A stretch of 39,832 nt of DNA, taken from positions 1 to 39,832 of IMG/VR virus record IMGVR_UViG_3300032116_000516, one strand, 5' to 3'. Source of the stretch: a virus. The notes beneath the pieces were generated by a model. It had not been told where the DNA came from and made no database searches. It was given only the letters and a program-made list of their open reading frames with translations. This document shows, piece after piece, positions 13,765 through 39,832 of the stretch; positions within the stretch are counted from its first letter, which is position 1; each line of letters begins with the position of its first letter. The translations under genes and the position numbers were made by a program.

Positions 13765-13803
13765 ATATAACCTCTACTTGGCTTGCGCCCTGCATTTTGC
13801 TTT

Positions 13804-13811
13804 TATTTATT
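13804..13811 (-). promoter_or_regulatory. Possible weak late promoter (AATAAATA)
   Basis: A one-mismatch version of the late box lies in the 51-base gap upstream of the gp8-like gene, with a second identical copy at 13813-13820 reaching into the end of the upstream gene. Spacing to the gp8 ATG (about 40 bases) is right, but the first T of the consensus is lost, so this is only a candidate. Confidence 0.35.
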
Positions 13812-13815
13812 CTAT

Positions 13816-15966
13816 TTATTCTGGCTGGGCTATAGTCGCATTACTAATATTAACGTTTGACTCTACCATCTCTTCAAGATTAAATCGCCCAAATACTTTT
13901 GTTCCCGCGACGTGAGTTACTTGTTTTAGAGGCTCTTCGTATTCTCTTATATCAATCTTGGATTGAATTTCATAAGAATATTCTTGATAGTATCTATTGT
14001 CATGGACTCTCTTTCCTGAGTCGTAATATTTATCAACACCGTCGCCTATTATTGTCTTTGTATAACCGTTTAGGTGCGAATTGACAGAAGACCAGAACCC
14101 GCCAGAAGAACCTTGCCCACTAACAGAAGTTGTTCCCACGGTAGCAACATTCCCGTTTTTATCAATTATTTCTGCGGTTCTATTGTCTCCATAACCATAA
14201 CCAGAATCTATAACAGACACTTTTCGTATTCTACCAACACCAAACGATGTTACCGCATCGATATTTGCGTTAAACCCAGATATTTCGCTTGAAGAAAAAT
14301 CTTGAGAAACAGAAACAACGTTCCAATTTGCCCCGCCAAAGGTTATGTAAGTAGACGCGTTAAACCCAGTATATGAATAAGGTCTTACGGTTAATGTGCT
14401 ATCTTGTATAGCAATAACCTTTCCTCTTATTAAACCTTGGGCTATCTCACTTCCAACATTTAAAGTAGCTGGTATGTTTTCTAGAGTTACTAACTGTTTC
14501 TTCTTTGTAAATAGCGTGACTCGAGTATCATACGCAATTGCAAACACATCGTTCACATAACTGTCACCAGGATTTACGTTATCAAATCTAACAATAGTTC
14601 CTAATTCAACTGGTAATAAGTCAAACGCGGATGATAGCACGGTGTTTATAGTTACAGGATTCGTCCCACCCGACATCGGCTGCGCGGCCGGCGGAGAATT
14701 ATAGTTTGCAGCATTAAGAGAAACTCCTACATAATCACCTATGATATCAAAGATTAAAGAAACGGTTTCTTCATTTGTTATTTCTGCCAAAATTACGTCA
14801 GCAGTGTTTGCTGTGTCCGGGTAAAGCTGTCCAGGAGAAGTATCATTCTTACCAACAATTCTAATCTCAGTACCTGGAGAAAGGGCTGATATATTAACGT
14901 TTACAACTCTATCCACCGTGGAGATAGTGGCGTTGTTTGAAAATTCGTCACCAGCATCCATTTTTACACCAACAGATATATTGTCTTGTCCTATGACTAT
15001 ACCTCTGTTTCCGGCAGTATCTTCCAGTGCTTCAAGTATATTGAATTTTCCGCCGATATTATCTAAGAAGAGTATTTGGTTTGAAACGAGTAGTTTTGTT
15101 GAATCAATAGAATAACCCCATCCACCATCAAGAATGTTGTACTCTATAATACCAGTGAAATTTTCAGATACTTCCGTGACGGTTCCGTACGCGCCAATTC
15201 CATCTGGGACTGTTCTAAATGTAACTAAATCACCTACTTGGTTATTTAACGTTCCTCTGAAGTTAGTATCAACGTCTACGGCTGTTAATGACCCGTTAAT
15301 AATTCCAAAACTAATTGGCACGCCATCTAATTCACAAAATATGTTTTCCAGATTCAAAAAGTCCGCGGTGCTATCATTTATAAAAATGATCGGTATGAAC
15401 GTATTATTGATAAGTATGAAGTTAATCTTATCTACGGTTGCTTTTGTTTTTGAAGCACCGCCAGTAATCTTTTTTCCAATTATATCTATATAAGTGTAAG
15501 TCTTTCCTGGTGCTCGCGGAGAAGAGAATAACCCGTCGTTTGGTACCATCTGTAGATATCTTCCGCTTCTCCATATGGAATCCGACGGCTTAAAGACATC
15601 TCTTGATGGGTTATATACTTTAATAGCTTCATTGTAAAAGAGTCGAAAGAATAATTCTAATCCGTTCTTCGATCCTTTTCTACGATATAAGCCAAGAATG
15701 TTCTTAATTACTATGCGAACAGTATTATCATTAAACGGAAGATCGGAAAGATACTTATTTTTAAAAAATATGACGAACCGATCTAAAGTTGTATCAATAT
15801 CACGATACTCAAATATTCTTCTACTGTTGTAGATGGACTGGTTATCTTCTGTTTCTAAAAATTTATAATATTCTTTTACAAATTGAATTAGCTCAGCTCC
15901 CTCCTCACGATATATCGCCGGAAACTGTCTTTCTATGTGAAAGGATATTAGCTTATCTATTGACAT
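13816..15966 (-). CDS. Large baseplate/tail structural protein in gp7 position
   Basis: The protein has 716 residues. The N-terminal ~130 residues form a helical module with FPAIYREEGAELIQFVKEYYKFLE, RDIDTTLDRFVIFFKNKYL and GLYRRKGSKNGLELFFRLFYNE, a layout I know from baseplate-associated virion proteins of cyanophage-type phages. The rest is beta-rich with DGGWGYSID and DSGYGYGDN turns. The gene lies between gp6 and gp8, exactly where T4 has gene 7, the large wedge protein. Sequence similarity to T4 gp7 itself is not evident to me, so the name is positional. Start and upstream stop share bases (TAATG at 15964-15968), which implies translational coupling with gp6. Confidence 0.7.
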   Translation of the reverse strand: MSIDKLISFHIERQFPAIYREEGAELIQFVKEYYKFLETEDNQSIYNSRRIFEYRDIDTTLDRFVIFFKNKYLSDLPFNDNTVRIVIKNILGLYRRKGSKNGLELFFRLFYNEAIKVYNPSRDVFKPSDSIWRSGRYLQMVPNDGLFSSPRAPGKTYTYIDIIGKKITGGASKTKATVDKINFILINNTFIPIIFINDSTADFLNLENIFCELDGVPISFGIINGSLTAVDVDTNFRGTLNNQVGDLVTFRTVPDGIGAYGTVTEVSENFTGIIEYNILDGGWGYSIDSTKLLVSNQILFLDNIGGKFNILEALEDTAGNRGIVIGQDNISVGVKMDAGDEFSNNATISTVDRVVNVNISALSPGTEIRIVGKNDTSPGQLYPDTANTADVILAEITNEETVSLIFDIIGDYVGVSLNAANYNSPPAAQPMSGGTNPVTINTVLSSAFDLLPVELGTIVRFDNVNPGDSYVNDVFAIAYDTRVTLFTKKKQLVTLENIPATLNVGSEIAQGLIRGKVIAIQDSTLTVRPYSYTGFNASTYITFGGANWNVVSVSQDFSSSEISGFNANIDAVTSFGVGRIRKVSVIDSGYGYGDNRTAEIIDKNGNVATVGTTSVSGQGSSGGFWSSVNSHLNGYTKTIIGDGVDKYYDSGKRVHDNRYYQEYSYEIQSKIDIREYEEPLKQVTHVAGTKVFGRFNLEEMVESNVNISNATIAQPE

Positions 15967-17750
15967 TACTTGGACTCTATGAAATTGATGACAATATCTT
16001 CATCTCTTATCGTAAGGATACGACTCTTAGGGGACTTTACATCCGCAGACACCGAGGCTGCGTATATTTTAATTGCGTTTCCAGAAAAACCTTCTACGAC
16101 AAAGTTCACGAGAGAAACGAGGCCAGTTGAATAATCAACAGTACCAACTGATGGATTTAGTATTTCAGTGTTTATAGAACTAGCACTTACTACTTGCATG
16201 CTACCATCACCGTTATCTTGAAGTTTTGACTTAATTCCCTTATACGTAAACGAAGTACTAACTATAGAGGGTTTAAAGTCTGCGAATCCGGTCGCAGCAC
16301 GATAAGGGTACGGTTTAACTAGGGGCGTATCAAATCTAAACTTTGGATTTAGCGTAAGATTAAGAACCGGTGCGTACTCGATAATCGGGTTTAGACATAG
16401 AGAGTTACTTAAAATACCATCATCAATGTCGTCAATGATTGCGGCAAGCCTTGACAATCTAAGAGTCTCACCAAAATCATCTAAGTTTGTGGAGTTATAA
16501 GATAGTACTCTATTTCTTATGAGAGATTCTAGTTCCTGTGTAGACTTGGTCGTAAACTTCTTTGAATATGTTATGTCGATTATTGTTTCAACATAGAGGA
16601 ATTCTGGGTCAATGAAAATTGGTTCAATCGTAAGAGGACTCTTATCAGAAATATATCTTATGTATTCACTCTTACTCGTATCAGAAAGAATTCCTTCTCC
16701 CTGTAAATTGACTGTGATTGCGACTCTACCGTATTGTGGAGGATCCAACTCGTCTCCGCCGTACACGGAAACTGATTGTATTTCTGGAAACCGCTGTCTT
16801 AATAGGATAGCATAATCGTTTGCTGTCACGGCCCTATCTTGTATTTGAATAGACTTGGGTGCAAAAAACTTAATGCTTTCAAGATTTTCTCTTTCGGCGC
16901 CACCGCTAGCAACTGCAACAGTTGAGACTGTTACGTTTGGCTTAAACGTAGTTGAAAATCTGCTTGCGCCGTTTGCCTCTGTCCCGTTACATGAGCGATA
17001 CTGAACTTTTACGTCAATATCCTTTTTAGGCTGCTCTCCATAGACATCTCTTCCAAAATAAATCGAATAGGTATCATCAAAATTTGCATCTAAGTAAAAT
17101 ACTTTACTAGTTGGAGTTACACCAAATATGTCTGGAGTGTACACGAATTGATTGAGGCCTTCAGTAGCTACTTCATCTACAAACACTTCAATTGAACTAA
17201 TGTCTATATTGTTGTTCGTGAGATTACATCTCAGAAAAGTTTCTTCGTCAAGAAAGAAACCGTCTTTTTCAAACTGCGTAAGAATTTCACCTTCGAATAT
17301 CTCTACGTTTGTTGCAACAAAAGTATTTCCAGTAGTTCTTTTTGCGATGTATGATTGGTTTGTTAAGAACGTGTATGAACTTCCTTGCAACGTAGTCACA
17401 AATTCCGTAAACCTTGGAATAGAAATAGTTTGAGATTGCGTTGTAGAATCAATAATGCTCAGATTTACAACCGCTTTAGCAGATGATCGTGATCTTGGCA
17501 GATAGTTTAGTTCTTTCGCATGAGATACGACTGAGTTCTTAAGAACTGCAGAGTCCAAAAACATCTCGTTAATCGCCATGTTCGTATAAAAGTTATTCAT
17601 ATGGGTATTATACGCTAGAACATCCAAAAGAACGTTCATATTCGAACCCGCAAAGTTGTAATCTTTAAATTGAGTCTGAGTCTTAAGGAATTCTATAAAT
17701 TGATCCTTAACCGCTGCGAAATCGAGCTCATTGATTGGTTTCGTAGCCAT
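15966..17750 (-). CDS. 6: Baseplate wedge protein gp6
   Basis: The protein has 594 residues, close to T4 gp6 (660). Its opening, ELDFAAVKDQFIEFLKTQ, then FAGSNMNVLLDVLAYNTHMN and NEMFLDSAVLKNSVVSHAKELNYLP, is the gp6 signature. The middle has the baseplate-J type block YFGRDVYGEQP...YRSCNGTEANGA and later AVTANDYAILLRQRFPEIQSVSVYGGDE. In T4, gp6 forms the continuous inner ring of the baseplate that transmits the contraction signal. It directly follows gp25 with no gap (its ATG is the base before the gp25 stop), as in T4 where 25 and 6 cooperate in the wedge. Confidence 0.93.
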   Translation of the reverse strand: MATKPINELDFAAVKDQFIEFLKTQTQFKDYNFAGSNMNVLLDVLAYNTHMNNFYTNMAINEMFLDSAVLKNSVVSHAKELNYLPRSRSSAKAVVNLSIIDSTTQSQTISIPRFTEFVTTLQGSSYTFLTNQSYIAKRTTGNTFVATNVEIFEGEILTQFEKDGFFLDEETFLRCNLTNNNIDISSIEVFVDEVATEGLNQFVYTPDIFGVTPTSKVFYLDANFDDTYSIYFGRDVYGEQPKKDIDVKVQYRSCNGTEANGASRFSTTFKPNVTVSTVAVASGGAERENLESIKFFAPKSIQIQDRAVTANDYAILLRQRFPEIQSVSVYGGDELDPPQYGRVAITVNLQGEGILSDTSKSEYIRYISDKSPLTIEPIFIDPEFLYVETIIDITYSKKFTTKSTQELESLIRNRVLSYNSTNLDDFGETLRLSRLAAIIDDIDDGILSNSLCLNPIIEYAPVLNLTLNPKFRFDTPLVKPYPYRAATGFADFKPSIVSTSFTYKGIKSKLQDNGDGSMQVVSASSINTEILNPSVGTVDYSTGLVSLVNFVVEGFSGNAIKIYAASVSADVKSPKSRILTIRDEDIVINFIESK

Positions 17751-18167
17751 TTATCTTGTCCTCTCTAGGAACACCGTTAGTGTGATCGGCTGTTCGACGT
17801 TATTTATGTAAAAATAGATTGCGACTTGAACAGTAGATTCGTCTAACGAAGATTGGACTATTACATCTAATAGAGTCGCTCTCGGTTCATAGATTCTTAC
17901 CGTTTCTTTTACCATCTCTTGAATAATCTTTATCGTGGCCGGCGTATTATTTTCAAAAAGCATAGCACGAATATTACCGCCGACTAGAGGCTGCATTAAC
18001 CTCTCACCTCTATCCGTTAGAATAAGGTTTTTTATTGCTTCCTTTACGGCCTCTTCGTCCCTTTTAATAGCAAGGTCTTCTGAAATTGGATTTTGAGTCA
18101 TGTCTTTATGAAAGTCTGAGAACAGACTAGGCCTACTTCTACCTGGAGAGTTTAATTGTACTACCAC
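17751..18167 (-). CDS. 25: Baseplate wedge protein gp25 (GTG start)
   Basis: The protein has 138 residues, the usual size for the gpW/gp25 family. Typical features are AVKEAIKNLILTDRGERLMQP, LVGGNIRAMLFEN, and VRIYEPRATLLDV near the C-terminus. In T4-like phages gp25 bridges the wedge to the sheath initiator region and seeds sheath polymerisation. The best start is GTG at 18167, preceded by GAGGG about 7 bases away; no ATG lies nearby in frame. It is 10 bases from the upstream peptidase gene and abuts gp6. Confidence 0.93.
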   Translation of the reverse strand: MVVQLNSPGRSRPSLFSDFHKDMTQNPISEDLAIKRDEEAVKEAIKNLILTDRGERLMQPLVGGNIRAMLFENNTPATIKIIQEMVKETVRIYEPRATLLDVIVQSSLDESTVQVAIYFYINNVEQPITLTVFLERTR

Positions 18168-18177
18168 TTATAATCCC

Positions 18178-19770
18178 TCATGCCTTTGACCACGTTCTTT
18201 CCGGTCCTACGTCTATATGAATAAAGTTTCCTGACCCAGAGCCGTATCTTCCTATTCCTCTAAATCCGTGTATTCTCGCCAATCTTATAAACTCTTCTTT
18301 AGTTTCGTCGTTTATGCCAGACCAAGATATATCTAAAGCCTTTCCTTGCATATGCAAAGAGTTCTTAGCGGCGCCTTTCAGCTTAGCATTATATTCAGGT
18401 GATCTATATCCACTATTTACAAACAGAGATCTGCCAAAGTCTTTCTGCACTTTCATTAACATTGCTCTTACTCCAATGTCAACTTTTTCCCAACCATCTC
18501 TTCCTAAAGCAGCAACCCACCTACCGTTAAACGTTACTCTAGAGTCACCCTTACCTTCGTTCCAAGGAGTTACTGCTTGAAAATCTTCCGGGCCCATTGG
18601 CGGAATATCTCCAGCGGCTGTATAAATTTCTCTACTTGTATTTATTCCACTACCCTTAGCTGGCAAGTCGTAACGAATCGCTCCGGCCGTTACCGATCTC
18701 GTAGTGTTAGGCGCGGAATTTGATCTAAGAATTCTAACCGTATCTTTGTAAGAGTTTATAAATGTATCTAGAGGATTCTTAATTGCATTGATACCGTTCT
18801 CTATCTGAGAAACGAATTGACAAAATCTGTATATGAGAAACTGAATGTCTTCGAGTGTAGGGTTTTTAAATATACTCGCCGCGTAGTCTATGATGGCTTC
18901 TATCTTAGCTTTAAAGTTCTTAAGGTTTTCTGGGTCAAAGAACTTCAACGCAGCTTCCTTTATCTTTTGAAACTGCCCTCCTATCTTTTCAACTAAGAAC
19001 GTTTTAATATCAGAGATAATGTTTTCAAGTGAAAAGTTTTCAATTATGCTCTTTACTTTATCAATCACTTTGTCCAAAACTTTAGTTATACCATTCTTAA
19101 GCTGATCAATAAGAGACGATAATGAAAAATTAAGAGCAAAGTTCTTTAGTTTATTTACTAGGTTTGCTATGTCTTGAAGCGCGGTGAAGAAAGCGCCGAT
19201 GGCACCAAAGATGCCTGGAACTAGAGAACAGAAACTGCCGAGTGTACTCTGTGTAAAGTTTTTAGTATAGAATGCTTCAAATTCATTTATTAGTTTTATT
19301 GATATAATTGAAGACGTTGTCGATAGTGTAATTGGAGTATAACCAAAGTTTCTTATGAACTCTGCTATTTCAACTGGAGTAAAGATGATGCCGGTGTTAA
19401 TTCTGTCCGTTAATAGAGGATGTATTGCAGGATCAATTAAACCCTTTACATCCGGCCCATTTCTTGGCGGGTCTTGTATGTCAAATATTCCAGAGCCTTT
19501 TACATCGTCTCTTACGAAAAACTGGTTGACAGCAGAAACAGAAGAGTAAAATGGTTCGGCGCCGTAGTTACGAATAACTTCCGTGATTGGATCCGTATCC
19601 TCGGCAGAAAAAATAACTCCGGACTGAAATGTGTTGATAAGAGACGAAACACTGTTTGAAGTGAATTCACCAATATCAATTGCTTCAGGAATCTCAAGCT
19701 CTATAATTTCGCCGGTAGATCCAACTCTAGTTACACAATTTCTTTTACCGCATAGACCACTTGTGGCCAT
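18178..19770 (-). CDS. Tail protein with C-terminal M15 peptidase (virion-associated murein hydrolase)
   Basis: The protein has 530 residues. The first ~350 are structural: an N-terminal beta-rich region, then long amphipathic helices (about 205-310, rich in K, I, L and F) that may form a coiled coil. The last ~140 are a zinc DD-peptidase domain. SLHMQGKALD at 471-480 gives His473 and Asp480, and FIHID at 516-520 gives His518, matching the M15 SxHxxGxAxD...HxD zinc site; SGYRSPEYN precedes it. Such domains cut peptide cross-links in peptidoglycan. Placement between gp5 and gp25 suggests it is carried by the hub or wedge and acts during DNA entry, alongside the gp5 lysozyme. It could instead have been recruited as an endolysin, but the structural N-terminus argues against that. 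Confidence 0.85.
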   Translation of the reverse strand: MATSGLCGKRNCVTRVGSTGEIIELEIPEAIDIGEFTSNSVSSLINTFQSGVIFSAEDTDPITEVIRNYGAEPFYSSVSAVNQFFVRDDVKGSGIFDIQDPPRNGPDVKGLIDPAIHPLLTDRINTGIIFTPVEIAEFIRNFGYTPITLSTTSSIISIKLINEFEAFYTKNFTQSTLGSFCSLVPGIFGAIGAFFTALQDIANLVNKLKNFALNFSLSSLIDQLKNGITKVLDKVIDKVKSIIENFSLENIISDIKTFLVEKIGGQFQKIKEAALKFFDPENLKNFKAKIEAIIDYAASIFKNPTLEDIQFLIYRFCQFVSQIENGINAIKNPLDTFINSYKDTVRILRSNSAPNTTRSVTAGAIRYDLPAKGSGINTSREIYTAAGDIPPMGPEDFQAVTPWNEGKGDSRVTFNGRWVAALGRDGWEKVDIGVRAMLMKVQKDFGRSLFVNSGYRSPEYNAKLKGAAKNSLHMQGKALDISWSGINDETKEEFIRLARIHGFRGIGRYGSGSGNFIHIDVGPERTWSKA

Positions 19771-26450: not shown

Positions 26451-27152
26451 ATGGCACTACCTAAGATTGATCTACCGATATATGAGTTGAGACTTCCTTC
26501 TAATGACAAGATAGTTAAGTTTAGACCATTTACGGTAAAAGAAGAAAAGATACTGTTAACTGCCCAAGAAGCAAAAGATAGTACACAAATGATGAATGCG
26601 GTAAATCAGATCGTGAATAATTGCCTTATTGATTTTGATGCAGAAGATCTTGCAGTTTTTGACTTAGAATATATTCTCATTAACCTTAGATCAAAGTCCG
26701 TAGATAACGAAATAAAATTTGAGATAGAAGATCCTGATACGAAAGAAAAGATTAAGCTTTCGATGGAAATTTCAAATGTTAAAGTGATTAAAGATGAAAG
26801 ACACGTTAATAGAATTAAGATAGATGATACATATACATTATTTTTAAAGTATCCTTCTATAAGCATGTTTAAAGGTATGTTAAATGAAGAAGAGATAACC
26901 ACAAACTCTTCATTTGAGATTCTAATTTCTTGCATGGATAAGCTCGCGTCTGAGGACACGGTGTATAACTTTAAAGACTTTTCAAAGAAAGAAGTTGATG
27001 ATTTCGTTGAGAGCCTTCACAGTGACGTAGTGAAACAGATGAAAGAATTCTTTGACACTATTCCAAAGGTTCGTCATGAAATACCATACGTAAATTCCAA
27101 CGGTGACAAAAAGACATTTGTTGTAGAAGGAATTCAATCTTTTTTTATCTGA
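26451..27152 (+). CDS. 26: Baseplate hub assembly protein gp26
   Basis: The protein has 233 residues (T4 gp26 is 208). It matches the T4 baseplate (PF12322) pattern: PIYELRLPSNDKIVKFRPFTVKEEKILLTAQE, NQIVNNCL, DLEYILINLRSKSVDNEIKF and DDFVESLHSDVVKQMKEFFDTIPKVRHE. In T4, gp26 is an assembly factor for the central hub and is followed by gene 51. AAGGAG lies 8-9 bases before the ATG. The last codons before the stop form a T7 run (27140-27146), and a second small frame begins at the stop, discussed separately. By size and place it could be the counterpart of lambda gpG-type tail chaperones. Confidence 0.88.
   Translation: MALPKIDLPIYELRLPSNDKIVKFRPFTVKEEKILLTAQEAKDSTQMMNAVNQIVNNCLIDFDAEDLAVFDLEYILINLRSKSVDNEIKFEIEDPDTKEKIKLSMEISNVKVIKDERHVNRIKIDDTYTLFLKYPSISMFKGMLNEEEITTNSSFEILISCMDKLASEDTVYNFKDFSKKEVDDFVESLHSDVVKQMKEFFDTIPKVRHEIPYVNSNGDKKTFVVEGIQSFFI
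27140..27146 (+). promoter_or_regulatory. Candidate -1 ribosomal frameshift site (T TTT TTT)
   Basis: The heptamer is aligned with the gp26 frame as X XXY YYZ: TCT TTT TTT ATC TGA. A -1 slip would continue TAT CTG ATG into the downstream 55-residue ORF without meeting a stop. No clear downstream pseudoknot was found by eye. Confidence 0.6.
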
Positions 27153-31077: not shown

Positions 31078-31473
31078 TTATCCGCCTTTCTGGAATTTGT
31101 CACGCAGACGCTTCAAGTCTTCTTCAGTCAGTACCTTAAGATACATCTTTGCTACCGTTCTGTTCACAGAGTAGTATTCCTGTATCATATCGAGGTCTGT
31201 ATTCTTCTGTTCCTTTAGCCAAGGAGAGAACCTGTTCCTTGATCTCAGGACACCGAGATAGTAGCGATACTGAGCGTCTTTAAAAAGATGGTGACGCATG
31301 TTCATTTCGTTCGCATGAAGTATGCTATCCTCGAAGGCAGCGAACGCTCGATTTGTAATGAACGGAATGTATTGCTTCTCAGTTTGCTCAGGAAAGTCAG
31401 AACCACGAATTAGATCCTTCTTACTGTGCGACGCAGACTTTACAAAGTCAAATGGTTTTAAATCTTGAGTCAT
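31078..31473 (-). CDS. 62: Sliding-clamp loader small subunit gp62
   Basis: The protein has 131 residues, shorter than T4 gp62 (187). Signature: LKPFDFVKSASHSKKDLI, EKQYIPFITNRAFAAFEDSILHANEMNMRHHLFKDAQYRYYLGVL. With four gp44 subunits, gp62 forms the ATP-driven loader that opens gp45 around DNA. The ATG lies 26 bases inside the small CxxC gene upstream, so translation is likely coupled. C-terminal part (YYSVNRTVAKMYLKVLTEEDLKRL) is helical, as in the family. Confidence 0.93.
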   Translation of the reverse strand: MTQDLKPFDFVKSASHSKKDLIRGSDFPEQTEKQYIPFITNRAFAAFEDSILHANEMNMRHHLFKDAQYRYYLGVLRSRNRFSPWLKEQKNTDLDMIQEYYSVNRTVAKMYLKVLTEEDLKRLRDKFQKGG

Positions 31474-31645
31474 ATAGCTCTTCTTTCATATCTGCAAGTT
31501 CGTCAAATGTTTTAGAGCACACGCCGCACATCTTTGCAGTATGCACTCCTTCTGCGGATGAGTATTGAAGTGTAAACGTGTTGTCTGCACTCAAGGTAAC
31601 TTGACAAAAGAAACACGTCTCAGGTTTCTTTGAAAAGAACTTCAT
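31448..31645 (-). CDS. Small protein with paired CxxC motifs between gp44 and gp62
   Basis: The protein has 65 residues: CFFC at about 11-14 and CGVC at 40-43, spaced 25 residues apart, look like a zinc ribbon. It overlaps gp44 by 4 bases (ATGA, 31642-31645) and gp62 by 26 bases, so it is tightly inserted in the clamp-loader operon. In T4, genes 44 and 62 adjoin directly. The function is unknown; a role in loader assembly, DNA binding or transcription could be imagined. The C-terminal third is acidic and helical (FDELADMKEELYD). Confidence 0.72.
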   Translation of the reverse strand: MKFFSKKPETCFFCQVTLSADNTFTLQYSSAEGVHTAKMCGVCSKTFDELADMKEELYDSRFKTI

Positions 31646-32595
31646 TTATAGGTTGACTCGAACATAACTTCAGTCAGGAACGCAACCAAGTTAACCTCTG
31701 GGTCTGCCACAAAGTGAGACTTATACATATAGTCAGCAAGAGTAACGATAAAGCCAGGAAGACTCTTAAGCTCAACCTTTTCAGCAGCAGCATCGTAGAT
31801 AGTACGGAACATTTCGTTCGAGTCTTGATCACTGTTATCGAGACACCACTTACGCATCTCGGTGAAGTTCTTTTCCTTCAGCATAACAAAAAGTTTGTCA
31901 ACAGTCTCTTGCTTGATGTCAGTAAAGATACCTTCATCAATACGTCCGGATGCAGCATACGACTGCAGTTCATTGAGAACTCTACGAAAATCTGGGAAGT
32001 ACCGCTCGATGATTTTCGCTACGACAGTCTTATCGTGATCAATGTTTTCGGCTGTCAGGATGGCAAGAACACGTTTATAGAACTGAGCAGCCATCTTTGG
32101 GCGATCCGACTTTTCAATCGTAAAGTCCACTTCAGAAAGTCGAGAACGCAGAGGTTCGATAATACGGTTCTTAAAGTTACAAGTAAAGATGAAACCGCAG
32201 TTCTTGGAGTATTCTTCGATGAAGTTACGAAGAGCAGGCTGAACGTTAGCTGCATTGAGATAGTCAGCCTCGTCAAGGATGACGTATTTACGGCCACCGC
32301 TAAACGAGACTGACGAAGCAAACGTCGAGATTTCATAACGAAGAGTGTCAAGATTGACGTTAAGAGAACCGTTCTTAACGATGTAATCGCAGCCGAGCTC
32401 ATTGAGCATAGCTTTTGCGATGGTTGTCTTTCCCATACCTGGACCACCTGTCAGCAGTAGGTTTGGAATGGAACTATCGGATACGAACTTCTTAAACGTA
32501 TCCTTAGTCTTTTGTGGTAGGATCGTATCCTCGATTAAACGAGGACGATATTTTTCGACCCAAAGTACTTCGTCAATCTTTGCGTCAAGCGCCAT
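31642..32595 (-). CDS. 44: Sliding-clamp loader ATPase gp44
   Basis: The protein has 317 residues (T4 gp44 is 319). AAA+ motifs: EKYRPRLIEDTILP at the start, Walker A GGPGMGKTT at 50-58, Walker B VILDEAD at 105-111, sensor 1 FTCNFKNRI at 137-145, and LRSRLS at 149-154 in place of the usual SRC/arginine-finger motif. It hydrolyses ATP to load gp45. The leader holds the shared 19-base element and AGGAGA. The next gene overlaps its stop by 4 bases. Confidence 0.96.
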   Translation of the reverse strand: MALDAKIDEVLWVEKYRPRLIEDTILPQKTKDTFKKFVSDSSIPNLLLTGGPGMGKTTIAKAMLNELGCDYIVKNGSLNVNLDTLRYEISTFASSVSFSGGRKYVILDEADYLNAANVQPALRNFIEEYSKNCGFIFTCNFKNRIIEPLRSRLSEVDFTIEKSDRPKMAAQFYKRVLAILTAENIDHDKTVVAKIIERYFPDFRRVLNELQSYAASGRIDEGIFTDIKQETVDKLFVMLKEKNFTEMRKWCLDNSDQDSNEMFRTIYDAAAEKVELKSLPGFIVTLADYMYKSHFVADPEVNLVAFLTEVMFESTYK

Positions 32596-32631: not shown

Positions 32632-32823
32632 TTATTCAGCTTCTTTAGCTGGTTCTTTTGGTTCCGGCGCTTTGTTTTGTTCAACAAACGTCGCGAACTT
32701 GTCTCTAATAGATCCAACTACAGTAAGTTCAGATCCTTCAACTGCGCCTCTTTTAACGCAGATATCGATAATAGAAACAGCAGTAGCGATATCCTGTAGA
32801 GTAATGTTTACTTTTTCAGACAT
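32632..32823 (-). CDS. Small conserved protein between gp45 and gp44
   Basis: The protein has 63 residues: a helical N-terminal part (NITLQDIATAVSIIDICVKRGAVEGSELTVVGSIRDKFATFVEQ) and an acidic Pro/Glu-rich tail (KAPEPKEPAKEAE). It starts within the gp45 stop (TAATG at 32821-32825). I associate this ITLQDI...RGA..GSEL.VVG..RDKF pattern with small proteins next to the clamp genes of marine T4-like phages. Function is unknown; coupling to gp45 suggests a replication or late-transcription partner. Confidence 0.75.
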   Translation of the reverse strand: MSEKVNITLQDIATAVSIIDICVKRGAVEGSELTVVGSIRDKFATFVEQNKAPEPKEPAKEAE

Positions 32824-33488
32824 TATTCACCTTTCTTGTAGGTAGATCTAGTATCAACACCGACGTAATAGGATACGTCAGCACCCTTAAACATCGACAC
32901 GCCCTTGGCGCAGAGAGTTACTTCGTAATCCTGCGGAAGCAACTTAAGGTTATCGGTCTTGAGAATGAGAGTGAAGGTGTCGTTAGTATCACCGATCTCT
33001 ACACCGAATGCGTCTGACGATTTGTTGTTGCTGTCGATTGCTCGCAGATAGCACTTACCATCCTCGCCGATAAATGCAATCTCACCAAACTGGAAAACAC
33101 CTGCCGCTTTCATTACAGACTGCAGATCTGCCCATTTCACGCTCACAGATACGTCAGCGGTTGGGATACCGATCTCTCTTTCAGGCGCAGCGACGATCAT
33201 CGAGATGTCAGCGAAGACATACTTCGTTTTGAGCTTGCCTTCAGAGATGATGAAGTACTTGTCATGGAATTCAACGTCTGGGTTTTGATACAGACTCAAC
33301 ATGGACAGGAAGCGAGAAAGATCATAGATAACAGCTTCGGATGGAAACTGATCCTCGATGTTCGCAATCGCGATCAAATTCTTTTCTGGCGTAATCGTAC
33401 GCAAAACCTTTCCAGGTTTCATGACGATTGATTTGTTGATGGTGGAAAAGCTCTTAAGGATAGTAAGAGTGCGTTCAGAAAATTTCAT
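32823..33488 (-). CDS. 45: DNA polymerase sliding clamp gp45
   Basis: The protein has 221 residues from ATG 33488 (T4 gp45 is 228). Opening MKFSERTLTILKSFSTINKSIVMKPGKVLRTI and later PSEAVIYDLSRFLSMLSLY, FGVEIGDTND and KLLPQDYEVTLCAKGVSMFKG match the family. The trimeric ring tethers polymerase and, in T4, also activates late transcription through gp33 and gp55, in line with the many late boxes here. An in-frame ATG at 33509 exists, but AAGGAG lies between the two, so 33488 is the better start. It heads the replication operon. Confidence 0.96.
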   Translation of the reverse strand: MKFSERTLTILKSFSTINKSIVMKPGKVLRTITPEKNLIAIANIEDQFPSEAVIYDLSRFLSMLSLYQNPDVEFHDKYFIISEGKLKTKYVFADISMIVAAPEREIGIPTADVSVSVKWADLQSVMKAAGVFQFGEIAFIGEDGKCYLRAIDSNNKSSDAFGVEIGDTNDTFTLILKTDNLKLLPQDYEVTLCAKGVSMFKGADVSYYVGVDTRSTYKKGE

Positions 33489-33523
33489 AGTATATCTCTC
33501 CTTGATCATTATTCATTAGTATA

Positions 33524-33557: not shown

Positions 33558-34436
33558 TTAAGGTCTAAATGCTTTCTTCTTCTTTTCTTTGTAAGTCTTT
33601 TCATTCGATTCTCTACTGGCTGTCGGATTTGCTCCAATTGAAGCAATCGCTCCCATGGATCCCTTGAAGATATAAGAACCGACGTGCTGTAGTTCCATCC
33701 AAGGACACATGTGTAGTTTAATTCCGATAGCTCGAGCTTTCTGACAGAAGAAGTAATCTTCTGATAGATAACGCTTTGATACTGGATCTATCTCGCAATC
33801 AAAGAATGCAGTGATCTCACGAGAACCATCAAAGTTTTTCGTGCGAACGTGGTCTGGAATGTATCTAAGTTCAGGATACGCATCCCTATACTTTTCCAAT
33901 ACCTCACGAGGAATAAGCATGAAACCGGTACCACCCTCGCTTACTTCGACTGGTCGGTCGATACGAAACGACGTATGCCCTTTTGCTGGATTAAAGACAT
34001 AGTCAGCAGTATAGAAGTCAAGATCGAGCGGGTTCTCAGCCTTACCCATCTCGACAGCTTTCTTTACCTTTTCCCAAGCAATCGTCTTCTTAGGATATGG
34101 CCCAGTCATAATGTCATACTCATCCGGCTGTAGAGTCTGAATTCCTAGAAGGGATAGAACATCGTTAGGACGGAAGCCAATATCAGAGTCAATAAACATT
34201 AGATGAGTACAATCGGAGCGAAGAAACTCGTCTGCAACGTAGTTTCTTGCTCTCTGAACCAAGCTCTCGTTAAACAGGTAGTAGAATTTAAGACTGATGT
34301 CATACTTTGCGCAGAGAGTGGCTAGGTCGTTGGTCGACTTACAGTACATACCTGCGCATTGTCCACCATACATTGGAGTTCCAATGAAGATAGAATATTT
34401 TCTGAGGTGCTCAGCAGTGACTTGTAGTTGCATCAT
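33558..34436 (-). CDS. GT-A fold glycosyltransferase-like protein
   Basis: The protein has 292 residues. The N-terminal part (IFIGTPMYGGQCAGMYCKS) and then NYVADEFLRSDCTHLMFIDSDIGF, with a DxD-type metal site Asp83-Ser-Asp85, are typical of GT-A glycosyltransferases. A second block, EGGTGFMLIPREVLEKY and LSEDYFFCQKARAIGIKL, supplies the acceptor side and an ED catalytic pair. The start is ATG 34436 or 34433 (AAGGAG upstream). It overlaps no neighbour and follows the exonuclease gene by 7 bases. Substrate is unknown: the phage DNA or a host glycan are both possible. Confidence 0.75.
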   Translation of the reverse strand: MMQLQVTAEHLRKYSIFIGTPMYGGQCAGMYCKSTNDLATLCAKYDISLKFYYLFNESLVQRARNYVADEFLRSDCTHLMFIDSDIGFRPNDVLSLLGIQTLQPDEYDIMTGPYPKKTIAWEKVKKAVEMGKAENPLDLDFYTADYVFNPAKGHTSFRIDRPVEVSEGGTGFMLIPREVLEKYRDAYPELRYIPDHVRTKNFDGSREITAFFDCEIDPVSKRYLSEDYFFCQKARAIGIKLHMCPWMELQHVGSYIFKGSMGAIASIGANPTASRESNEKTYKEKKKKAFRP

Positions 34437-34443
34437 TTACTCC

Positions 34444-35070
34444 TTATAATAGGTCAAGATCGTTTTCAGCACGATGTATTTGTTGAAAACGAAGTACGTC
34501 AGCAAGAATATCCCACGCGCTGTCGTGTTTTTTAAATGATTTATTCCACTTCTCTTCATTGAGCATTGGTGTAAATCCATTCGTAGTCGAGAAGTTCATC
34601 TTTGCATCGATGTAGGTTCGCGTGTCACGAACTTTCCAATACTTAAGGTACTCTTCAAGATGAAGGCGCTTGCCTTCGGCATCAAACAAACGAGATAGAA
34701 TGATTGGATCGAAAGTATTAGAACGACTCCACCAATAGTCAATCTTTGGCGACTTAATTAGGAACTCGTGAAACTGTTGAATAAATTCTTTAACCGTTAG
34801 ATCCGTCTTCTTTGGCGCAATGTTAGCGCGAACATCTGCATCTTGTTCTTCCCAGAACTGCAGAGTGCTCTTGTCAATTTCCCAACTATAGTTCTTTACT
34901 TGATCCACTACGGACAGCTTAAACTTTCTAGTCTCAGTGATGCTGTTTAGAGAGTACGGATTACTCGTAAACTTTTCGAAATTGAATACCATCACTGAGC
35001 AGTCGATTACAGCACACTTGGTCGCATCCTTTCCCATGGTCTCAAAGTCGATTATAAGATGGTTAGTCAT
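34444..35070 (-). CDS. dexA: DexA-like DEDDh 3'-5' exonuclease
   Basis: The protein has 208 residues (T4 DexA is 227). The active site is complete: Asp8 and Glu10 (IIDFETMG), Asp121 (RSNTFDPIIL), and His182 with Asp187 (KHDSAWDILADVLRF). Such enzymes degrade nucleic acid 3' ends; T4 DexA acts on DNA, and related domains act on RNA. The ATG overlaps the stop of the methyltransferase gene (ATGA, 35067-35070). The C-terminus NDLDLL is acidic-hydrophobic, as in clamp-binding tails, though shorter than the two described elsewhere. Confidence 0.88.
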   Translation of the reverse strand: MTNHLIIDFETMGKDATKCAVIDCSVMVFNFEKFTSNPYSLNSITETRKFKLSVVDQVKNYSWEIDKSTLQFWEEQDADVRANIAPKKTDLTVKEFIQQFHEFLIKSPKIDYWWSRSNTFDPIILSRLFDAEGKRLHLEEYLKYWKVRDTRTYIDAKMNFSTTNGFTPMLNEEKWNKSFKKHDSAWDILADVLRFQQIHRAENDLDLL

Positions 35071-36284
35071 ACAAAAAATTCCTCTAGAGTTGCTTTCTGC
35101 GATCCTGTTCCGAGAGGATCGTATTCATTCTTTTCGTAGTGATTGTTCTGACGTAGATAGTTTGTGCCGGACATAGGCAACTCGCCACGAACGAACTTTG
35201 CGATCTCAGAATGAATATCACGCGAAGTTGGTACAGGAACGTTTTGCGCAATATGGTTCATTTTAGCAAGACCGCCGACGAGTTCGAAGTCGTGAGGGAA
35301 GCCCATCATATGCAGAGCTTCACGAACCGTAAGGGAACGGTCGTGAATTGGATGTATCGTATCAGCAAGGTTACGGCCGATAACAGCATTCATGCATTCA
35401 TCGAATACATGAGTCGAGCTATCCCAGATGCCTTTATTATCTGCGAACTTTTTAATGGCGTGTTCCGATACTTTGATACCACGAGCGTGGCCGACCTCGT
35501 GCATCCACTTGTTTGCTTCGTCGAGTAGACCACTACGATTAATGTAGTTAAAAGCTGTTATGTTACCGCTACGAATAATGACGTCCCTTGGGTTTTCATT
35601 TGTTCTTGCTTTGATAAACGCATAGTATGGTTCATCGTCGAGTTTGTTATTGATAACAAGATCGTGTTGCAGCGTATTGTTCTCTATCTCTGCTAGATAC
35701 TCACGGAAGTTCTTACGATCGCGTTTGAACCAAGCCATGATAGGTGCCTTCTCAGACTTCCAACCAATAGCAAAAGTACGATCGCGAGCTTGCGGAATGC
35801 CGTGATACATCGTAGATGTTTTGTACAGAGTTAAACTATAACCTCTTTTATTACAAATGTCAAACAAATTGTTCGCGACCGCCCGACCCTTATTCGTATA
35901 GAGAGCAGGAGCGTTTTCTACAACGACTGCCTTTGCTTCAAATAGGTCGATCGCGTCCTCGAATACCTTGTACATCCATTCGTTCTTAGCACAGTTTGCG
36001 CCCTTTGCTTCCGCAGTCTGGCCTGTGTTCAACTGAGAAAGAGCAGCACAGGGTGGAGTACCCGACACAACGTCCACCTTATGAATTGGCGGACCGTTAT
36101 CTAGAAGACGATACTCTAATCCACGTCCTTTTACGTTGTTCTGATAGTTGACGTAGTGACTATCGTTTGCTTGAAATCCATCGTATGAGTAGATAGCAAG
36201 AGGAGGAACTCCGAAAGCTTTTTCTGCGCCGAGCATCTGTCCACCAATGAGTGGGATATGAGGTACCCAAGTAATATCAGTCAT
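35067..36284 (-). CDS. Cytosine-C5 DNA methyltransferase
   Basis: The protein has 405 residues. Motif I is reduced to LIGGQMLGAEKAFG; motif IV is GTPPCAALSQ with catalytic Cys79; motif VI is ENAPALY (123-129); motif VIII QARDRTFAIG (165-174). A recognition region follows, and then VREALHMMGFPHDF and IAQNVPVPTSRDI serve as motifs IX-X. It should transfer a methyl from SAM to cytosine C5. The C-terminus is QKATLEEFFV, very like clamp-binding tails of T4-type polymerases. Coupled to dexA. Target sequence cannot be read. It may protect phage DNA from restriction or prime bases for further modification. Confidence 0.9.
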   Translation of the reverse strand: MTDITWVPHIPLIGGQMLGAEKAFGVPPLAIYSYDGFQANDSHYVNYQNNVKGRGLEYRLLDNGPPIHKVDVVSGTPPCAALSQLNTGQTAEAKGANCAKNEWMYKVFEDAIDLFEAKAVVVENAPALYTNKGRAVANNLFDICNKRGYSLTLYKTSTMYHGIPQARDRTFAIGWKSEKAPIMAWFKRDRKNFREYLAEIENNTLQHDLVINNKLDDEPYYAFIKARTNENPRDVIIRSGNITAFNYINRSGLLDEANKWMHEVGHARGIKVSEHAIKKFADNKGIWDSSTHVFDECMNAVIGRNLADTIHPIHDRSLTVREALHMMGFPHDFELVGGLAKMNHIAQNVPVPTSRDIHSEIAKFVRGELPMSGTNYLRQNNHYEKNEYDPLGTGSQKATLEEFFV

Positions 36285-36294
36285 TATTTTATCC

Positions 36295-37542
36295 TTATGT
36301 AAAAAAGTCTTCGAGAGTCGTTACAGTCTTCTTTTCAAAGACTCTTACGTCTGGGCGTTGATAGCTAGGATCAAACGTAGACATGATCTTATCGTTAATG
36401 AAAGTACCGTCGTAATATTCCGGCTTAAGAACAGCTTTGCGAAGATCCTTAAGTAACGTCTCGTATTCATCTTGATTATCAATCAGATGCTGCATACGCT
36501 CGTAGAACTCAGAAGGAGTCTTTGGACGCAGAAAGTCTGGAATAGGAAGGTGACTCTGCATATCGTAAGTCGGATGCAGGAACGGAATTACACCCGCGTG
36601 GATCATTTCGATATATTTCGAAGTAACCCAGCCTTCTTTGATAGGAATAATGAACGTGAACTTAACGTCTCTAAGTTTCTTCTGAAGTTCGTCGATATGC
36701 ATGGACCCCTTAAAGCGAGAGTCTTTACTTACAGCATCGTGTTCCCACTTGCCATAGATCTCAACGTCTTCAAACTTATCTAGTACCCATTCCTTAAGTA
36801 GATCGTAACGCGACGGCTTACCTTCGTTAAGAACAACCATGAAGTCCGTCTTGCGACCGAGATTAACTTCTTGAGTATACTCATAGTCACCACAGAACGC
36901 AGTTTCCATTCCTGCGTACTCAGAGTGTACGACTCGAGTGATACGCTCTTGATCTTCGTAGCTACGAATAGAAAACGTTTCGTAGTCGTAATCAAACTGG
37001 CCAAGAGAACGCATCGGCATATGGAACATATCACGCGGTTGCTTAATTGTATAACGCGGATCGTTAACGATCTCAATATACGGTGGCTTCTCTTGGTTCA
37101 GCCAAGTAAAGATCGGTGTCGTGTACCACTTAGTCATGTCGAGAGTCTGAGCTGGCTTTCCATCGTTACCTTCGCGAACCTTTTCGATACGGTCAGGAAT
37201 AGTAACGTTGCTCAGTTGGCCGACCATCATAATGGTAAAGTCTAGAGTGATCTGCTTTTCTTTGAAGTAATTAACAATATGATCAAAATACTTCTGAGAA
37301 ATATCAAGACCAACACCTTCCCATACGTCTACAACATTATCATATGGAAACAGATCTGCTTTTTCGATCTCAGAAAGAGTCGCAAAGTCAGATCTGCCGA
37401 TGATAAAGAAAGTTTTATCTGGGTTGTTATTAGCAACTGCACGCAGAGTACATGATGCTTCGTTATCACCGCCGATTGGCGAGTACTTAGTATTTCTAAA
37501 CTTTACGGATTTGCCAACTTTGCAAAAACCAATCTTCATCAT
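36295..37542 (-). CDS. GT-B type glycosyltransferase with possible clamp-binding tail
   Basis: The protein has 415 residues. The C-terminal half holds KFTFIIPIKEGWVTSKYIEMIHAGVIPFLHPTYD (about 293-327), where Glu312, Gly317 and Pro320 form the donor-binding ExxxxGxxP pattern of GT-B enzymes. The N-terminal half lacks recognised domains but is mixed alpha/beta. The last residues, TVTTLEDFFT, repeat the tail of the adjacent C5-methyltransferase. The start is ATG 37542 (coupled as ATGA with the upstream HAD gene) or 37539. Transfer of a sugar to modified phage DNA is my preferred reading, because of the shared tail and neighbours, but a glycan acceptor cannot be excluded. Confidence 0.75.
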   Translation of the reverse strand: MMKIGFCKVGKSVKFRNTKYSPIGGDNEASCTLRAVANNNPDKTFFIIGRSDFATLSEIEKADLFPYDNVVDVWEGVGLDISQKYFDHIVNYFKEKQITLDFTIMMVGQLSNVTIPDRIEKVREGNDGKPAQTLDMTKWYTTPIFTWLNQEKPPYIEIVNDPRYTIKQPRDMFHMPMRSLGQFDYDYETFSIRSYEDQERITRVVHSEYAGMETAFCGDYEYTQEVNLGRKTDFMVVLNEGKPSRYDLLKEWVLDKFEDVEIYGKWEHDAVSKDSRFKGSMHIDELQKKLRDVKFTFIIPIKEGWVTSKYIEMIHAGVIPFLHPTYDMQSHLPIPDFLRPKTPSEFYERMQHLIDNQDEYETLLKDLRKAVLKPEYYDGTFINDKIMSTFDPSYQRPDVRVFEKKTVTTLEDFFT

Positions 37543-37901
37543 TTATCCCTCATAATCCATTCAATAAATTGATTCGGCAAGAGTGCCTTGTCATCTACAT
37601 AGTATACTGCATTTGGTTTGCCAAACTGAAGTTCGTCGTATGGAACATCATGTTCCTTGAGCCAGTTAATCGTAAGCTCGCCGACATCTTCTATGACTTT
37701 ATTTATATCACCGTTATGTGTCGCCATTCGCCTAGCAGTAAAAAGAACGATGCGGTATCCGGACTGTTTCGCCTTTCTGATGGCATCGATCATTTCTTTG
37801 ATCGGTTTCGCCTTTCCATACTTCTCGAACGTATCCTTCTCCGCATCGTTAGGTATACAAATAGTGTGATCAATATCTATTACTAGTGTAGGCATACTCA
37901 T
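37539..37901 (-). CDS. HAD-family phosphatase
   Basis: The protein has about 120 residues. HAD motif I is VIDIDHTI (nucleophile and general acid Asp), motif II LFTARR, a Lys in FGKPNAVY, and motif IV VDDKAL. This short cap-less form is common in polysaccharide and nucleotide-sugar gene clusters. AAGGA ends 8 bases before ATG 37901; ATG 37907 and 37895 are other options. The gene overlaps the upstream kinase/nucleotidyltransferase gene by about 32 bases and the glycosyltransferase by 4. It probably removes a phosphate from a sugar or related intermediate. Confidence 0.82.
   Translation of the reverse strand: MSMPTLVIDIDHTICIPNDAEKDTFEKYGKAKPIKEMIDAIRKAKQSGYRIVLFTARRMATHNGDINKVIEDVGELTINWLKEHDVPYDELQFGKPNAVYYVDDKALLPNQFIEWIMRDK
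37700..37707 (-). promoter_or_regulatory. Possible internal late promoter (TATAAATA)
   Basis: Exact late box inside the HAD gene, about 160 bases before the glycosyltransferase ATG. It could drive late expression of the glycosyltransferase, methyltransferase, dexA and GT-A genes without the donor-synthesis genes. One exact match inside a gene is not far above chance in this AT-rich sequence. Confidence 0.35.
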
Positions 37902-39384
37902 GCACATAGTCCTTCATTTGTTGTTGCCGATTAGGGCTGTCATAGTGTAGAGGGATTGCTGTCGCAATCAGAAGTGCACCACCGTCAATGATCTCTTCGT
38001 ACTCATTAGGATAGTACTTACGAATGATCTTACTAAAGCTTTCACGAACATACTTAGGATACGGCTTATTATGAAATAGCGAGTTATAGCCGTGATAGAG
38101 ATCGTGAGAAAGTTTGCATAGATCGTATAGATGATCGCCACTGCATCCGATATGATTACCGTATTCACCACGAGGATCCAGCAGAGTGATGCTGTCATTA
38201 TATGGATTATACAACACATTTCCAAAATGTAAATCACCATGCATAGCTTGTACGGGCAGCGCCTTAATCATGCATTTAATCGCAACATCCATATAGAATT
38301 GTTTTTGAGGATGGTGAATGTCCGTCTTTACAAGTCTATCAGACGTCTTTGTGATCCACATCTTACGAGCGTTTGCACTAAAGTCCTCAAGAAAATCCGC
38401 GCCAGGAGTTTTATGAAAGTGGTTACGAACAGAAAGTATAACCTTTTCAATTAGATAGTCTATAGTACTCTTAGAGATGTCCTCGTGGATGAACAAGTCA
38501 GACAGCAGAGTACCGGACTCATAAGACAAGGATAGGCCGTATTCATCATCTAGCACCTTCGGGACGAACATTCGCTGCTTAGAGTTGAGTCCACCATACC
38601 ACTTCTTTTCGTTCATAACAGTCTTTACGGCGAAGTCGTTCGTATAGTTTGGAATCTTCGTTACTACGTTAAGATCGGGATCGTACTTAAACGAATTGAA
38701 CTCTCTTGCTTTAAAAGTAAGGAACTCAGCACAGGTACGATGATACGAGGCAATGTCTCCGATGTCGTACCACTTGCTCGTATTCACTCTTTCGAATGAT
38801 TTAACAGTCAGCTTAGAATACATCTCAAGAGCAAACGAGATATCGTATTCTGAAGTATGTGAGAATGAATGATATGCTGCGTGCCCATCTTTAAAACTAT
38901 AAAGACCGACGAGAGCTACACCATCTTTGACTGTCTCGGCTGGTTTATTGAAGAAGTTCTTACCATCCCACATACACCACGCAAAGTGATCCTCCACTTC
39001 TTTAGTAAGAAGGAAATCCGTTCCAAGAGGAAGATCTTCATCAAGAATGATTGCATCTCCGAGCCAGACAACAAGAGGCAAGTCTTTATTCGATAGTTCC
39101 TCAATGCCAACACGAATAGCATCACGGGGACCGTTCAACGATCCCTGCTTTACACAACGAATGTCGTCGCTATATATGCTCTTACTTGCCCACTCACGAA
39201 TGTCGTCATACTTACCGTCAACGATTACGATCTCACCGATATCAGAACAGTTCTTATAGATCGAGTCAATAATATACTCGATGGCAGGTTTGCCGTGGAT
39301 ACGAACCATCGCCTTGGAACAGTTTGTTGTAAGCGGACGAAGTCGAGTAGCCTCACCCGCCGCTGGAATTACTACATTTATCAT
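37870..39384 (-). CDS. Nucleotidyltransferase-kinase fusion (NDP-sugar or CDP-choline type synthesis)
   Basis: The protein has 504 residues from ATG 39384. Domain 1 (1 to ~235) is a sugar/choline-phosphate nucleotidyltransferase: NVVIPAAGEATRLRPLTTNCSKAMVRIHGKP, then VVWLGDAIILDED. Domain 2 (~250-500) is an APH/choline-kinase-like fold: MHGDLHFGNVLYNP (381-394; His382, Asp384, Asn389) and LLDPRG with Asp403. The pair could phosphorylate a sugar or amino alcohol and then activate it with a nucleotide, like MurU plus AmgK, or LicC plus LicA. The start is supported by GGAG 8 bases upstream; earlier in-frame ATGs reach 39411. It overlaps the upstream methyltransferase by 32 bases. Confidence 0.85.
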   Translation of the reverse strand: MINVVIPAAGEATRLRPLTTNCSKAMVRIHGKPAIEYIIDSIYKNCSDIGEIVIVDGKYDDIREWASKSIYSDDIRCVKQGSLNGPRDAIRVGIEELSNKDLPLVVWLGDAIILDEDLPLGTDFLLTKEVEDHFAWCMWDGKNFFNKPAETVKDGVALVGLYSFKDGHAAYHSFSHTSEYDISFALEMYSKLTVKSFERVNTSKWYDIGDIASYHRTCAEFLTFKAREFNSFKYDPDLNVVTKIPNYTNDFAVKTVMNEKKWYGGLNSKQRMFVPKVLDDEYGLSLSYESGTLLSDLFIHEDISKSTIDYLIEKVILSVRNHFHKTPGADFLEDFSANARKMWITKTSDRLVKTDIHHPQKQFYMDVAIKCMIKALPVQAMHGDLHFGNVLYNPYNDSITLLDPRGEYGNHIGCSGDHLYDLCKLSHDLYHGYNSLFHNKPYPKYVRESFSKIIRKYYPNEYEEIIDGGALLIATAIPLHYDSPNRQQQMKDYVHEYAYTSNRY

Positions 39385-39832
39385 AATGTTCTCTCCATTC
39401 ATCATATTCATCTTTTAACAAGACCCATCGTAAATTCGTAGAGTCTACTTTCTTTCGCTTATCCCAGACGATCCACATATACGCAATCATGCCGCCAATC
39501 TGATGTGTCTTATTTATGGGTTCTATCAGGCCCGTGTTGAATCTAACACGATCACTTAGAAAAATAATATCACTTGGCGGGTAATTTGTAAACAAGTTTT
39601 TTCGCTTTTGACCTTCAAGAAATGTAAGGCGAACGAACATCGCTGTTACGTCGTATTCCTTTACTGCCTTGTCTGCGATAAGATAAGGAAGATCCTTATG
39701 ATAGGGCGGGTTCGTAACGAGAGCTTCTGCACCTAACGGCTTCTGAAGAGAAAGAACGTCTTGGCCAACTGTAACAGGACATAACAGATTATCGTATTGA
39801 TGAAGATCAAAGGATTGAACATTATGGTCATG
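39353..39832 (-). CDS. Adenine-type DNA methyltransferase, 5' end outside window
   Basis: The frame is open from the right edge to TGA 39353 (159 codons visible), so the N-terminus with the SAM motif I is missing. It contains TNPPYHKDLPY, the NPPY motif IV of N6-adenine (amino) methyltransferases, then ADKAVKEYDVTAMFVRLTFLEGQKRKNLF and AYMWIVWDKRKK, the end pattern of phage methyltransferases of this type. Predicted role is methylation of an exocyclic amino group on DNA. The stop overlaps the start region of the nucleotidyltransferase-kinase gene, so it belongs to the same operon. Substrate strand and target are unknown. Confidence 0.82.
   Translation of the reverse strand, partial: HDHNVQSFDLHQYDNLLCPVTVGQDVLSLQKPLGAEALVTNPPYHKDLPYLIADKAVKEYDVTAMFVRLTFLEGQKRKNLFTNYPPSDIIFLSDRVRFNTGLIEPINKTHQIGGMIAYMWIVWDKRKKVDSTNLRWVLLKDEYDEWREHYDKCSNSSGG

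Follow-up and report, generated by a model that had tools for sequence, protein, structure and literature searches.

Polymerase-type C-terminal tails on a C5-methyltransferase and a glycosyltransferase of a T4-like phage suggest probable clamp-coupled DNA hypermodification

The 39.8 kb fragment of a T4-like phage analyzed here (G000; IMG/VR record IMGVR_UViG_3300032116_000516, the whole of which is referred to as the window) encodes on its minus strand a C5-cytosine DNA methyltransferase homologue (MTase) and, next to it, a GT-B glycosyltransferase (GT), both ending in a short acidic-hydrophobic peptide, as well as a gp45 sliding clamp. The first-pass annotation, made from the sequence alone, had noticed the two tails and taken them for clamp-binding peptides, and both tails are indeed found at the ends of the two genes.

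35067..36284, minus strand: C5-cytosine DNA methyltransferase homologue (MTase), 405 aa (PF00145, E 7e-22; motifs; AlphaFold2 (AF2) model)
35070..35096, minus strand: MTase tail codons, KATLEEFFV, putative sliding-clamp-binding motif (conservation; polymerase match)
36295..37542, minus strand: GT-B glycosyltransferase (GT), 415 aa, like T4 DNA beta-glucosyltransferase (AF2 model)
36298..36321, minus strand: GT tail codons, TTLEDFFT, putative sliding-clamp-binding motif (conservation)
32823..33509, minus strand: gp45 sliding clamp, 228 aa, proposed binding partner (PHROG_223, E 2.5e-70)

The C-terminus of the MTase reads ...GTGSQKATLEEFFV, ending KATLEEFFV, and that of the GT ...FEKKTVTTLEDFFT, ending TTLEDFFT. 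The window itself contains no polymerase gene, and the polymerase was read on contig L240, which overlaps the right end of the window with 99.9% identity over 2,603 bases and hence represents the same phage. This polymerase ends KIATLEEFFM, and its final eight residues agree with the MTase tail at seven positions, so that the phage's own polymerase C-terminus is of the same type as the two enzyme tails. The polymerases of relatives end similarly (SLESFFM in G001, TLESFFM in G002, TLESFFV in G003, TIEDFFS in G004, TLDDFFS in both G010 and G012). In T4, the corresponding endings are KASLDFLFG in gp43, exactly as quoted in the first-pass annotation, KTNTLDFLL in gp33 and SLDFLYEAND in gp55; the LFDMFD-type ending also mentioned there was found in the polymerase of phage 44RR (NNLFDMFDI). 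The gp43 peptide 892-SLDFLF-897 forms a one-turn helix within the gp45 pocket (PMC12746103), and the gp43, gp55 and gp33 tails can replace one another with activation retained in vitro (PMC2988020). The AF2 models of the MTase and the GT place a short helix of low confidence at the tail (residues 400-404 and 410-414, respectively). Like these T4 SCBM/CIP motifs, the tails of the window are short C-terminal Leu-acidic-x-Phe-Phe-like motifs after a divergent linker and are also present on the polymerase, but here they are borne by DNA-modifying enzymes.

Relatives were collected in two viral-contig scans (mostly 48-100% identity), extended by two further scans with alignments, and tails were counted over distinct sequences. 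The motif stands at the C-terminus of all 68 MTases, 62 out of 73 GTs and 21 out of 22 polymerases, the exceptions being one divergent GT paralogue (28% identity, ending ..LEL), one broken GT open reading frame (ORF) and the N-terminal half of a split polymerase gene; homologues with at least 48% identity retain the motif, as would be expected of a functional tail in close homologues. Within the motif of the MTases, column identity amounts to 96% (L), 83% (E), 87% (E), 100% (F) and 67% (F), compared with only 22-51% in many columns of the linker before it; in the GTs the corresponding values are 100% (L), 96% (E), 76% (D), 100% (F) and 96% (F). As a separate observation, polymerase genes are interrupted by intervening ORFs at G002:C1:170396-173930 and at L265:1-3975, and the downstream part of the latter starts with a sequence resembling an intein end.

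Read 5' to 3' on the minus strand, the locus comprises an adenine-type DNA methyltransferase that runs off the window end, a nucleotidyltransferase-kinase, a HAD phosphatase, the GT and the MTase, followed by DexA, a GT-A-like protein, the gp45 clamp with the adjoining gp44 and gp62, and RegA. The encoded clamp matches the T4 and RB69 gp45 structures with E values of 6e-24 to 8e-24.

31078..31473, minus strand: gp62 clamp loader small subunit (PF16790, E 1.7e-11; phrog_225)
31642..32595, minus strand: gp44 clamp loader large subunit (Gp44_lid PF21328, E 1.4e-14)
33558..34436, minus strand: GT-A-like protein without tail (phrog_1574; relatives end NPIDKSK, KKAFRP)
34444..35070, minus strand: DexA-like exonuclease without clamp tail (phrog_255)
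37539..37907, minus strand: HAD phosphatase, probably donor synthesis, without tail (phrog_1238, HAD_PNKP; C-termini of relatives)
37870..39411, minus strand: nucleotidyltransferase-kinase (NTP_transferase and APH), probably donor synthesis, without tail (PF00483, PF01636; C-termini of relatives)
39353..39832, minus strand: second, adenine-type DNA methyltransferase, incomplete at the window end, ending CSNSSGG, without tail (phrog_799; uncut copy at L240:13744-14415)

Comparison of the C-termini of relatives revealed no such tail in the HAD protein, the nucleotidyltransferase-kinase, the GT-A-like protein or DexA, in agreement with what had been stated beforehand for the former two. DexA had also been regarded as carrying a weaker version of the tail; its relatives, however, end DMEQITV, DLEQVTT or NDLELL without a terminal Phe pair, and owing to this drift we rejected it as a weaker clamp client.

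The two tail-bearing enzymes have unrelated folds, as already noted in the first-pass annotation. The AF2 model of the MTase (pLDDT 83) best matches M.HaeIII (Z 24.8), and its catalytic residues P77 P78 C79, E123 N124 (ENA) and Q165 R167 R169 (QxRxR) are invariant in 28 relatives. For the GT, which matches no PHROG and scores below threshold against Pfam, the fold provides the tie to DNA glucosyltransferases: its AF2 model (pLDDT 85) adopts a GT-B fold, with T4 beta-glucosyltransferase (BGT, 1nzd) as best structural match (Z 21.8 over 318 residues, 12% identity), followed by the next unrelated family (Z 19.0) and by T4 alpha-glucosyltransferase (AGT, 1y6f, Z 17.5). Furthermore, in relatives covering that stretch a gp42-type dCMP hydroxymethylase (E ~1e-64 to 1e-78), which retains the Asp of the NDYAW segment, lies between the polymerase and the GT (L240 copy at 11304-11996). 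T4 gp42 makes 5-hydroxymethyl-dCMP, and given the upstream gp42 homologue the GT likely glycosylates 5-hydroxymethylcytosine (5hmC) in DNA. The modeled fold, with T4 BGT ranking first, and the gp42 homologue together support the earlier suggestion that the GT acts on DNA.

Based on these sequence comparisons, we consider it highly probable that the tails of the MTase and the GT are gp45-binding motifs of the T4 gp43/gp33/gp55 type and that hypermodification is coupled to replication by clamp tethering. The tails would dock the C5-MTase and the BGT-like GT in the same gp45 pocket as the polymerase tail. With three such sites available on the gp45 trimer, the enzymes would travel with the fork, or stay with clamps remaining behind it, and modify nascent DNA before it is exposed to host nucleases. 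In such a pathway the gp42-type enzyme would supply 5-hydroxymethyl-dCMP, the nucleotidyltransferase-kinase and the HAD protein would make the nucleotide-sugar in solution, and the GT would add the sugar to 5hmC in DNA. A comparable arrangement exists in DNMT1, which is among the best fold matches of the MTase model (Z 24.6) and is tethered to PCNA via an N-terminal PIP box, copying a pattern. In both cases a C5-cytosine DNA methyltransferase is carried by the replication clamp (in the window case by prediction), whereas the motif of the window MTase is C-terminal and its purpose presumably the masking of phage DNA.

For T4 itself, the interaction of alpha-glucosyltransferase with gp45, which the first-pass annotation had mentioned, is confirmed in the literature (PMC13216743, bearing out Sommer 2004), whereas beta-glucosyltransferase does not bind the clamp (PMC13216743). 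The alpha enzyme is a DNA glycosyltransferase recruited to gp45, as proposed here for the window GT; however, it ends FDIITK without such a tail and bound gp45 while C-terminally His-tagged (PMC13216743), and therefore it is no direct precedent for the tails of the window. The beta enzyme, although the top structural match of the window GT, shares no sequence family match with it, has no tail and, unlike the prediction made here, did not bind gp45. A literature search for phage methyltransferases with a clamp-binding motif found nothing.

Three other explanations of the tails were weighed. The least likely, with next to no weight, is that functionless acidic-hydrophobic C-termini arose by chance or by lineage-specific convergence. 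Look-alikes do exist, e.g., the NrdB ending TKAFTEDDLF and the ending VEGIQSFFI of a protein in the structural region, but a matrix built from the polymerase, gp33 and gp55 tails only, and thus blind to the GT and the MTase, ranked both enzymes among the top three C-termini in each of G001, G002, G003, G004, G010 and G012. Per proteome, 0.00-0.03 equally good C-termini are expected in most genomes, with higher expectations for the more divergent MTase tails (0.22 in G010 and 0.51 in G004). Moreover, a single fixed pattern applied to 2,886 nonredundant ORFs returned 130 matches, consisting of 60 MTases, 53 GTs, 16 polymerases and a single stray, so that the tail is nearly exclusive to these three families; the persistence of the tail columns over a drifting linker and the additional tail-bearing enzyme families of a second cassette (see below) also speak against chance.

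It is similarly very unlikely, though marginally less so, that the tail codons are kept as nucleotide sequence, namely because GAGGA serves as the Shine-Dalgarno element of an overlapping downstream gene, with LEEFF being accidental. GAGGAA can encode part of LEEFF, and where the stop codon overlaps the next ATG, a Shine-Dalgarno-like sequence is present in the last eight codons of 13 out of 14 MTases and 37 out of 38 GTs. However, 38 MTases and 18 GTs retain the peptide without an overlapping start or a Shine-Dalgarno-like sequence, which indicates that the peptide and not the DNA is conserved. These uncoupled copies switch codons (e.g., TTA ACT GAA TTC TTT), the Phe and Leu codons vary synonymously, and no coupled gene follows the polymerase tail in the cases read. 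The Shine-Dalgarno element was therefore rejected as main cause and is regarded as an additional constraint on the codons used where genes are coupled. Somewhat more room, while still improbable, is left for the tail binding another replisome hub or a protease adaptor instead of gp45, by which the enzymes and the polymerase would still be co-recruited or co-degraded. A hydrophobic C-terminal peptide could function as a degron, or its partner could be gp44/62 or gp32, but the motif matches those of T4 gp43, gp33 and gp55, whose known partner is gp45, and it sits on the polymerase itself.

Several observations weigh against gp45 tethering of the two enzymes, or at least limit its reach. The gp55 sigma factors of the clade (G001:C1:79250-79768 and equivalents) do not share the clamp motif found at the C-terminus in T4, indicating that the motif is not employed by every expected client, and the link between late transcription and the clamp may be of another kind there. 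The GT and MTase homologues of phage XG4 (43-45% identity) have no tail, no tail was found on the polymerase, MTase and alpha-GT of S-TIM5, and L027-type contigs have a divergent GT paralogue that likewise ends without it, implying that these enzymes can work without the tail. CmoX and CmoY of S-B43 are characterized hypermodification enzymes of a T4-like phage, and neither carries the tail; it was not found on S-B43 CmoA either, and the annotated S-B43 polymerase appears prematurely ended. For T4, the contact between alpha-glucosyltransferase and gp45 was not considered the chief factor setting the alpha:beta ratio (PMC13216743). Finally, the presence of a C5-MTase next to a gp42 homologue poses a chemical puzzle because 5hmC blocks C5, and for this reason the substrate may be residual cytosine, or the chemistry may be unusual. 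Considering these tailless homologues and relatives together with the tail-independent binding of T4 alpha-glucosyltransferase to gp45, clamp tethering would be one lineage-specific solution and no universal need.

With respect to the chemistry of the MTase, the C5-carboxymethyltransferase CmoX of phage S-B43 (PMC12783734) is likewise a phage C5-MTase homologue for hypermodification and matches the model with Z 22.6. In contrast to CmoX, which lacks a clamp tail, the window enzyme has TPPC instead of SPPC and Gln347 instead of Arg350, the residue with which CmoX binds Cx-SAM; this Gln347 in motif X is invariant in the family, whereas canonical C5-MTases have Asn. A search for CmoA (TIGR00740) gave no match in eight records. 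An assignment to the Cx-SAM dependent CmoX was rejected on these grounds. A TET/JBP dioxygenase (PF12851) was found in none of 14 records, with the control genomes giving no match either.

Beyond the window, the polymerase search brought in contig L266, whose polymerase is 66% identical and ends SIEDFFV. Its gene cluster (12742-19079) encodes a GT4-type glycosyltransferase (PF00534), an inositol-phosphate synthase, a HAD protein, a 5hmdU-DNA-kinase-like protein (PF18723), a second GT (phrog_13881) and a divergent C5-MTase. Cassettes of this type, largely non-homologous to that of the window, were seen over L266-L295. Among 29 loci collected with the kinase-like protein as query, polymerase-type tails are present on 5/5 GT4 proteins, 16/19 kinase-like proteins, 14/18 second GTs, 16/17 C5-MTases and 7/7 polymerases, and on none of 17 synthases, 12 hydroxymethylases and 20 HAD proteins. 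As the pattern was written after some of the tails had been seen, these counts describe the distribution and do not test it; nevertheless, they show that the tail rule extends beyond the initial pair of enzymes. The GT4 tails (TIFDMFA, VFDFFE) represent a second form of the motif, as in the 44RR polymerase. Additionally, ORF233c of the cultured Aeromonas phage 44RR2.8t (L296:10423-12810), annotated as hypothetical protein, is a fusion of the second GT with the kinase-like domain and ends CSLDGLFAI, which is clamp-motif-like.

Taken together, DNA hypermodification probably is clamp-coupled as a general rule in a large group of uncultivated T4-like phages, though we hold this with less certainty than the reading of the two window tails. 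The BGT-like GT, the C5-MTase, the GT4 GT, the 5hmdU-DNA-kinase-like protein and the phrog_13881 GT would each have acquired a polymerase-type tail, with the enzymes making nucleotides and sugar donors remaining tailless, and the clamp would act at the fork as a toolbelt for DNA modification. In T4, one glucosyltransferase binds the clamp; for the wider question of how phages modify each newly made genome copy ahead of attack by host nucleases or CRISPR, a conserved peptide that the polymerase also carries offers a simple, testable mechanism. Moreover, a C-terminus copying the tail of the phage's own polymerase provides a way to find unknown DNA-modifying enzymes; by this criterion the second cassette was picked out, including the 5hmdU-kinase-like protein and two further glycosyltransferases.

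A different ending was observed on seven HAD proteins of the L266-L295 lineage, which terminate in QLSLF or QLQLF, the only such endings in 4,556 ORFs.

HAD proteins ending QLSLF or QLQLF: L273:9526-10059, L274:1734-2258, L275:2209-2691, L278:2235-2765, L283:9520-10053, L286:4981-5496, L289:1324-1833

This pentapeptide binds the bacterial beta clamp, and in view of these endings the HAD proteins may use the host clamp or gp45.

Regarding the motif look-alikes, the protein ending VEGIQSFFI is encoded in the structural-gene region of the window (26451-27152, plus strand) and lacks the acidic residues of the clamp tail; a similar protein in G010 ends LEGMRSFFI. The small subunit NrdB (G003:C1:127487-128767) scores like a clamp tail. 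Both proteins were judged not to be clamp clients, and the NrdB ending, probably the known NrdA-binding tail, represents a useful class of false positives.

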